Source: Thermococcus sp. LS1
GTDB lineage: Archaea > Methanobacteriota_B > Thermococci > Thermococcales > Thermococcaceae
NCBI RefSeq assembly: GCF_012027395.1
Contig: NZ_SNUJ01000003.1
Location: 1 to 64,000 of the forward strand
Reading direction: 5' to 3'
DNA: 64,000 nt
The notes under the pieces were generated by a model, which searched no databases, was not told the DNA's origin, and was given only the letters and a program-made list of their open reading frames with translations. The number at the start of each line of letters is the position of its first letter. Positions within the stretch are counted from its first letter, which is position 1. Shown one piece after another: positions 1,471-49,512 of this stretch. Both the position numbers and the translations under genes were made by a program.

Positions 1471-1487
1471 TTTTCTATGCTTTTCTC

Positions 1488-1555
1488 GGGGTCGGTGAAG
1501 GGCGTGGTCATCACAACGCCGCGTGGCTTCAGCAAAGCAAAAGCTCGTCATCCCC
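1488..1555 (-). ncRNA. C/D box guide sRNA with variant terminal kink-turn
   Basis: Read on the minus strand from 1551: box C ATGACGA (1551-1545), 12-nt guide, box D' CTGA (1532-1529), 14-nt spacer, box C' GTGATGA (1514-1508), 12-nt guide, box D CCGA (1495-1492). GGGG before box C can pair with CCCC after box D. Both 12-nt guide lengths are typical of archaeal C/D sRNAs that direct ribose methylation with L7Ae, Nop5 and fibrillarin. The terminal box pair is unusual: C carries C at position 5 and D carries C at position 2, so U-U is replaced by C-C. The D' and D guides would pair with CAAAGCAAAAGC and TGAAGGGCGTGG; I did not recognise the targets. Confidence 0.72.
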
Positions 1556-1556
1556 C

Positions 1557-1620
1557 TGTCGGCCCGACCGGAACCCCCGCTTCACTTCTCAGCGGAGAGG
1601 GCGGGCAGCCGGGCCGATAG
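1557..1620 (-). ncRNA. GC-rich hairpin RNA ending in ACA, possibly H/ACA-like
   Basis: On the minus strand an 8-bp stem, TCGGCCCG with CGGGCCGA (1617-1610 with 1566-1559), encloses an internal loop and a second CCCGC/GCGGG stem. ACA (1559-1557) overlaps the last base of the stem and follows its core directly. Stem, pocket, upper stem and ACA is the layout of an archaeal H/ACA pseudouridylation guide, but I could not find a clean kink-turn in the upper part. GCTTTTTAA at about 1643-1635 on the minus strand could be its promoter, or simply the terminator of the peptidase gene. It abuts the C/D sRNA, so a combined transcript is possible. Confidence 0.4.
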
Positions 1621-47849: not shown

Positions 47850-48875
47850 CTACCTCCGCCCAAACCAGCTCTCGAGCGTCGACTGCTTTCCTGCCTTTAC
47901 GGCTTTCTTCAGCCTTTCAAGGCCATTCTTCACTCTCTCCTCGCTGAAGTCGTGCTCATCGCAGAGGAACTTTATAATGTCCTCTTCGTCGGGCTCACGC
48001 CATTTGAGTTCGTAGTCATCTGTGACCGGCGGGTTGAGGAAGAACTCCTTTATCGCGTAGAGGTCGACCTCGCTCTCCTTCTGGTACTTCTTGAGCGGGT
48101 CTTTGGTGCGCTTGACTATCGTTAGAGCCTTCTTCGGGCCGATTCCCTTAATCCCACCTGGGTTGTAGTCTGTACCGACCAAAACCGCCATCTCAATGAG
48201 TTTCTCCCTGTCGATTCCGAGCTCTTTGAGAACCTCCTCCAGAACTATCAGCTCGGGCTTGACTTCGACGTAAACGTTCTTCCCCGGGAGCTTTCTCCTT
48301 CCCGTTATCGTGAGGTTCCTCACGAGCTTGGGCGCGCCAAAGAGCAGGGAATCGTAGTCCTGGCTAGCGGAGGCGTAGACCTTCTTCTTCGCAGCCATGT
48401 AAGCAGCCTGCGCTTCACCCTCGCTCGGAGCCTGAATAACAGGGATGCCCATCAGTTCGAGGAGCGTTTTGGCGTCGTTTATGAGCTCCTCGTTGACGCG
48501 GGTTGCACGCATCGCGTACTTCTTGGCCTCCTCAAGGTCGCCCCTCTCCAGTGCCTCGTACCACTTTTCTTCGGCTTCTTCTCTCGCCTCGCGCCTCTTC
48601 TCGAGCTCCTTCTTCTTGAAGTCCGGCGGCTTGCCGTCGAAGATATAGGCCGGCTTTATACCCGCTTCCATGAGGTTTATCGTGCGGTAGAAGAGCCCGC
48701 TTAGATGGGAGGTTATCCTCCCCTGGGAATCCATCAGCGGAGTTCCGTCCCTCTGGCGGATGGTTGAGAGAAACTGGTAGATGGCGTTGAAGGCATCTAT
48801 TGCAACCCTTCTTCCATAGAGGTTCTCCAGTTCAATTTCCTTCCTCGGGATGAGCTCGCCAATCTGTACCCCCAT
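47850..48875 (-). CDS. fen: Flap structure-specific endonuclease FEN-1
   Basis: A 341-residue 5' flap nuclease used in Okazaki fragment processing and repair. N-domain [19 protein letters not shown] with [16 protein letters not shown]-domain [28 protein letters not shown] with its acidic metal ligands; and a C-terminal PCNA-binding box [11 protein letters not shown] 48875 overlaps the stop of the upstream PsiE-like gene (TGATG), suggesting coupling. Confidence 0.96.
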
Positions 48876-49300
48876 CACTCCTCACCCACCTTGATGTAGA
48901 GGTATCCCAAAACAAAAAGCAGGGCCGCTATTGACAGCAGTTTGAACGCATCCATGTTTTCAAAATCCGAAGTCACTATGAGCTTCTGGATGAGTGCCAC
49001 TATACCAACCTCGAGGATGTGGGTCAGGCTCACACGGTGCTGTCTTAAATATATTATGAGTATGCGGTAGGTCTCTATCAGGATTACCGTAACGAGGACA
49101 TTGGCTATAAGGAGCTTCGGTTCAGTTACACCGTATGTCAGCTTGAAGTTCAGGTAGATGGAGTACACTGTGAGATAGAGTATGAAAAACAGAAATGCCA
49201 TCACCACGAAGTCAAAGCTTATCTCGAGGGTTTTCCTAAACAGCCTGTGCACCTGCGTGTATTGGGCCGTTTTCTCGTTCTCAATCTTCGTCATCTTCAT
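48875..49300 (-). CDS. PsiE-like four-helix membrane protein
   Basis: A 141-residue membrane protein with four helices ([71 protein letters not shown]). The E-T-Y-R segment after the second helix and the [20 protein letters not shown] segment match phosphate-starvation-inducible PsiE. Start at ATG 49300 or 49294. Its 5' leader has a C/D box-like layout. Overlaps fen by one codon. Confidence 0.7.
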
Positions 49301-49356
49301 CAGCCTACCGTAGGCTCATCACCATTCAGGTGAGGGGAAGGATCATCATCACTCGG
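49296..49356 (-). ncRNA. C/D box-like leader ending at the PsiE start codon
   Basis: On the minus strand: GTGATGA (49352-49346; overlapping ATGATGA 49349-49343), 13-16 nt, CTGA (49329-49326), 3 nt, GTGATGA (49322-49316), exactly 12 nt, CTGA (49303-49300) whose last base is the first base of ATG. ATTTAAAATC at about 49382-49371 would start RNA near 49352, right at box C. The 12-nt segment GCCTACGGTAGG is itself palindromic, which is odd for a guide. GGTGATG may simply serve as ribosome site. It could be an sRNA, an L7Ae-binding leader, or chance. Confidence 0.42.
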
Positions 49357-49512
49357 AAGTTTGGGCGGCAGATTTTAAATGCTTTATTCTAAAGGTTAGA
49401 AACCAAGGGTTCCTTTGACGGATGCCGATTCGGTTATCGTCAAAACGAGAAGAGAAAAGTTATAACTTGTTTTACTAACGTGAAACTGTAAATATCATCA
49501 GGGGTGGTGAAA

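Follow-up and report, generated by a model that had tools for sequence, protein, structure and literature searches.

A probable dual-guide C/D box sRNA gene at the head of a psiE–fen1 unit in Thermococcus sp. LS1

The stretch of Thermococcus sp. LS1 DNA analysed here (64,000 nucleotides, the window) carries on its minus strand a psiE-like gene, which codes for a small membrane protein, followed by fen1, and directly before psiE a series of C and D boxes. The features of the locus are:

47850–48875, minus strand: fen1 (XPG/FEN1 nuclease; Pfam XPG_N and XPG_I), its start overlapping the psiE stop (TGATG)
48875–49294, minus strand: psiE-like gene (Pfam PF06146, E 9.8e-11), probable start ATG 49294 (mechanical ORF start 49300); Met3 invariant, first codon unconserved
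49297–49353, minus strand: probable C/D box sRNA, approximate mature extent (RF00095 match 49297–49352; model R1 match 49298–49353)
49299–49309, minus strand: likely psiE Shine-Dalgarno sequence, box D with flanks, GGTAGGCTGAT (anti-Shine-Dalgarno duplex −8.6 kcal/mol)
49300–49303, minus strand: box D, CTGA, invariant in the alignment
49304–49315, minus strand: D guide, GCCTACGGTAGG, 12 nt, source of a palindrome; 11/12 paired with 23S 2711–2722; GGTAGG in 30/30
49316–49322, minus strand: box C', GTGATGA, conserved
49323–49325, minus strand: D'–C' spacer, 3 nt, loop of the presumed K-loop
49326–49329, minus strand: box D', CTGA in 28/30 (CCGA in genome G029, CGGA in G028)
49330–49342, minus strand: D' guide, TCCTTCCCCTCAC, 13 nt; 11 continuous pairs with 23S 2733–2743; core CCTTCCCCTC conserved in 29/30
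49343–49349, minus strand: box C, ATGATGA, conserved in alignment A1; GTGATGA in the same register in g4 genomes
49374–49379, minus strand: TTTAAA, a TATA-like promoter element assigned by consensus, 30 nt before box C

Positions 49349 to 49300 form a complete C/D box sRNA sequence. From 49352 to 49300 the minus strand reads GTGATGATGA-TCCTTCCCCTCAC-CTGA-ATG-GTGATGA-GCCTACGGTAGG-CTGA and continues with TGAAGATG. The boxes follow the archaeal order C (RUGAUGA), D' (CUGA), C' (RUGAUGA) and D (CUGA) within about 50–60 nt, and the guides preceding D' and D are 13 and 12 nt long, as is typical of such RNAs (about 12 nt). A preliminary description of this DNA had pointed to two GTGATGA sequences (49352–49346 and 49322–49316), two CTGA sequences (49329–49326 and 49303–49300), a 12-nt interval from C' to D and 3 nt from D' to C', and all of these were recovered. 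The first GTGATGA is indeed present, but the conserved C box is ATGATGA at 49349–49343, three bases further in; we placed box C there because nine g3 genomes have no GTGATGA at the position originally proposed.

The four-box pattern (R-TGATGA, 9–14 nt, CTGA, 1–9 nt, R-TGATGA, 9–14 nt, CTGA) occurred once on both strands of the window, namely in the psiE leader, and never in 60 first-order Markov simulations of the window (chance expectation 0). In the wider collection of genome contigs the exact pattern was found in further Thermococcus/Thermococcales records and in six others. Inspection of one of these, from Methanothrix, revealed no C/D sRNA there; the remaining five, which are bacterial, were presumed to be chance matches.

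The Rfam family RF00095 (snoPyro_CD, Pyrococcus C/D box sRNAs) matches the window copy end to end with 45.3 bits, barely above the gathering score of 45. The orthologs of the g3 genomes, which are Pyrococcus-like by relationship, score higher than the window copy (55.5–56.8 bits). Compared with the family, the window D guide is changed (CCTAC for CACACC) and the element precedes psiE instead of fen1. Elsewhere in the window, positions 1478–1616 (minus strand) match RF00065 (snoR9) with 99.5 bits over a length unusual for a C/D RNA, near a 5S rRNA gene that is cut by the window start (1–95).

A DNA search returned 30 orthologs at E < 1e-6, from which a sequence-only model, R1, was built. Of 94 Thermococcaceae genomes, 52 gave an R1 match of > 32 bits at the psiE/fen1 locus; the other 42, some of which are incomplete, gave none there. 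Comparison of the coordinates of psiE, fen1 and the sRNA matches distinguished three gene contexts. In context A (20 genomes: five g1, including that of the window, seven g4, seven g5 and one g6) the order is sRNA, window-type psiE, fen1. Context B, found in nine g3 genomes, has the sRNA between a diverged psiE and fen1, with a GGTGA-type ribosome site and the fen1 ATG directly after it; in one of these genomes (G012) the psiE frame continues through the sRNA. In context C (23 g1 genomes) the sRNA lies at the 3' end of a diverged psiE. The psiE stop TGA was inside box C in all four context C sequences that were read (G020, G027, G028 and G038), and in three of these four a separate TATA-like AAATA for fen1 follows the sRNA; in G028 fen1 has been relocated away. 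Box-C stop codons and both kinds of overlap with neighbouring genes have been described for archaeal C/D genes (PMC7994747).

Several further observations concern this locus and its relatives. At psiE/fen1 loci L001–L030 fen1 is accompanied by one or the other of two PsiE-like gene types that share about 30% identity; the window type follows the sRNA and the other type precedes it, as if one had replaced the other. The region upstream of fen1 in G024 and G028 (L120 and L122) retains GGCAGGCTGAGGCAAAG, which resembles the sRNA 3' end. The full sRNA is missing there (the G028 copy lies elsewhere), which suggests a rearrangement breakpoint within the sRNA gene. In a genome without an ortholog, TGATGAGCGAGGTTTACGGTAGGCTGA (G055:C62:8116–8142, L118) may be half of a different C/D sRNA with the same GGTAGG end. 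A fluoride riboswitch (RF01734; L174, 219–299, plus strand) occurs on a Thermococci contig on which the sRNA precedes fen1.

Among the columns of the 30-sequence alignment, those that vary little or not at all belong to the boxes, to CCTTCCCCTC in the D' guide, and to the CGGTAGG and CTGA that end the D guide, whereas columns outside the boxes and guide cores vary. The preliminary description had considered the case of boxes that drift while a GGTGA ribosome site is kept; in this alignment the boxes proved conserved. Upstream of psiE, where it had proposed to check other Thermococcales, they are kept throughout the 20 genomes, that of the window included, in which the element lies in the psiE leader. 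Boxes and guides are conserved whatever the gene context, over the 52 of 94 genomes and all three arrangements. Since boxes and guide cores are kept in three gene contexts, the element is to be read as a free-standing guide gene and not a psiE leader motif; a motif of the latter kind would not be expected to preserve guide cores, nor to be found at a distance from the psiE start. The G029 copy has an intact D half but a decayed D' half. This decay in a relative and the marginal Rfam score would suit a decayed or non-expressed C/D-like relic, which is nevertheless a very improbable description of the window copy, where the four boxes and the two guide cores have stayed intact and the promoter-like element is conserved: a TATA-like hexamer is found at −27 to −30 from box C in all 20 context A genomes.

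The guides were matched in the correct orientation to the 16S, 23S and 5S rRNAs and the tRNAs of the window genome. The fifth base before box D' falls on 23S G2736 (11 continuous pairs, 2733–2743). The D guide pairs at 11 of its 12 positions with 23S 2711–2722, with two G-U pairs and one mismatch, and its fifth base before box D falls on C2715. Fits of the guides to tRNAs and 5S rRNA were no better than those of shuffled guides. The 21-nt separation of G2736 and C2715 fits what is expected of a dual guide, and shuffled guide pairs equalled the joint score within 100 nt in 0.8% of cases. The D' and D sites lie 15 and 36 nt, respectively, before the sarcin-ricin loop AGTACGAGAGG (position 2751). 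A one-base shift in the register of the D' guide, pointing to G2737, occurs in g4 genomes and in those inspected g1 genomes that have a CTCC end.

Among the 20 genomes compared, none departs from the D' target sequence. Assignment of the D target is less secure than that of the D' target, given the mismatch and the two G-U pairs at C2715 and an alternative site, C2788, which has the same UCUACCGG core. This second site fits the window guide less well, and it fits the ancestral CACACCGGTAGG guide slightly better than C2715 does. The CUACC of the D target is kept in all compared genomes except G002, a genome that lacks the sRNA and carries other sequences at both sites (CCTCC and CTGCC); this is a single case, and in G078 the sRNA is absent and the D target is kept.

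A 15-nt palindrome in the D guide (AGCCTAC-N-GTAGGCT, 49316–49302) had been taken as a hint of a hairpin. The palindrome is real, and the 25-nt palindromic stretch folds on its own with −8.8 kcal/mol (z −3.5 against shuffles), which speaks for a leader hairpin (AGCCUAC/GUAGGCU) that controls initiation, with the boxes coincidental. Such a hairpin is nonetheless highly unlikely. Only G000 and G026 have the palindrome (GCCTAC-GGTAGGC) complete; G040 and G029 have a shortened version, and the other 26 of the 30 aligned genomes have CACACCGGTAGG or another non-palindromic form; a conserved or covarying stem was thus not found, the palindrome being limited to close relatives of the window. It is a recent, clade-limited change and therefore lends no support to a conserved hairpin. 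In this clade the altered D guide gains distal pairs at 23S C2715, and 23S pairing accounts for its change.

The psiE start probably is ATG 49294 and not ATG 49300, to judge from the aligned genes. The position of ATG 49300 is ATA in six g4 genomes (G073, G074, G077, G080, G081 and G085) and out of frame in G088, whereas ATG 49294 (Met3) is kept in all genomes examined. Box D had been described as overlapping the start codon. Only its last A is shared with ATG 49300; that ATG being an improbable start, the overlap probably results just from taking the upstream ATG as the start. The closest perfect copy of the GGTGA previously named as ribosome site is the C' box, which at some 24 nt from the start is too distant for a normal ribosome site. 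A likely Shine-Dalgarno sequence is GGUAGGCUGAU, composed of the end of the D guide and box D, which pairs with the anti-Shine-Dalgarno sequence at −8.6 kcal/mol and ends 4 nt before ATG 49294. In G002, where psiE occurs without the sRNA, the gene begins at the codon that matches ATG 49294 (GGTGAT-AGCA-ATG), with a GGUGAU/anti-Shine-Dalgarno duplex of −8.4 kcal/mol at the same 4-nt spacing. The base following box D is U in 20/20 context A genomes, including those that carry ATA, though these are related and not 20 independent cases; it is G in the inspected sequences of contexts B and C. The restriction of this U to context A fits a role of CUGAU in initiation.

Archaeal C/D genes that overlap a downstream ORF are documented (PMC7994747), and in T. 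kodakarensis 11 snoRNAs lie in 5' UTRs (PMC4247193). According to Tripp et al. 2017, as cited in PMC7994747, about 7% of the archaeal dual-guide C/D sRNA genes surveyed overlap an adjacent ORF at its 5' end. The window element resembles the 5'-overlapping sRNAs, as far as they are described in that account, in its location at an ORF start with box D at the initiation region; it differs from them in that coding more likely begins 6 nt downstream, which puts box D inside the Shine-Dalgarno sequence.

The TATA-like element predicts a transcription start near 49351, where the sRNA begins; in that case the sRNA would itself form the leader of the psiE mRNA. The overlap of the psiE stop and the fen1 start suggests cotranscription, and fen1 probably belongs to the same transcript as psiE.

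The preliminary description had offered two readings of this arrangement, an sRNA that shares the transcript of an mRNA leader, or a cis-acting switch in which L7Ae bound to the leader blocks the psiE start and no separate sRNA is required. For the switch, by which psiE (and fen1) translation would report free L7Ae, one may cite that the C/D and C'/D' motifs are L7Ae sites, that box D lies within the probable Shine-Dalgarno sequence, that leader regulation by L7Ae exists in archaea, as in l7ae autoregulation (PMC5539422), and that a 5' C/D overlap reduced reporter expression, according to the account of Tripp et al. 2017 in PMC7994747. Those regulated leaders carry a kink-turn motif where the mRNA has its Shine-Dalgarno region, as the leader of psiE is predicted to do, but the window has a full two-guide sRNA with putative rRNA targets, and its gene is psiE. 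One kink-turn would suffice for a switch, yet the guide cores are conserved like the boxes and match rRNA. In 32 genomes the element is in the fen1 leader or after psiE, and therefore is not maintained for psiE leader regulation; G002, conversely, has psiE without the element. With no specific support for its action on psiE, the switch is very improbable as an explanation. An L7Ae effect on psiE is possible as a side effect, because sRNP assembly would cover the Shine-Dalgarno sequence and the published 5' overlap lowered reporter expression; competition between sRNP assembly and psiE translation is plausible in the window.

The reading as an sRNA that shares an mRNA-leader transcript is the one that gains support from the Rfam match, from boxes and guides kept in 52 genomes and from the 23S targets. 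We conclude with high confidence that the element is an archaeal C/D box sRNA gene of the dual-guide kind, with a putative promoter of its own, heading an sRNA–psiE–fen1 transcription unit. Judged by its guides, the sRNA most likely directs ribose methylation of rRNA. L7Ae, Nop5 and fibrillarin would assemble on the putatively expressed transcript, at the kink-turn formed by C and D and the K-loop formed by C' and D', and the RNA would be trimmed to about 55 nt. The resulting sRNP would guide the putative 2'-O-methylation of two 23S residues closely preceding the sarcin-ricin loop, G2736 through the D' guide and C2715 through the D guide. Transcript not assembled into sRNP may act as psiE (and fen1) mRNA, with GGUAGGCUGAU as the Shine-Dalgarno sequence for ATG 49294. 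Because box D belongs to the psiE Shine-Dalgarno sequence, this putative sharing of a transcript could extend to two mutually exclusive fates, rRNA-methylation guide (as sRNP) or psiE–fen1 mRNA, a proposal that we consider rather unlikely.

For Thermococcus sp. LS1, these comparisons favour moving the annotated psiE start to 49294. If the proposal of two exclusive fates is true, expression of psiE and fen1 would report sRNP assembly capacity, and if the shared box D/Shine-Dalgarno sequence limits psiE translation, the locus would be a compact case of competition between guide RNA and mRNA. Across the family, a single C/D sRNA retains its guides while the neighbouring protein genes change, and these changes of context support the published view that archaeal C/D genes exploit whatever transcription surrounds them.
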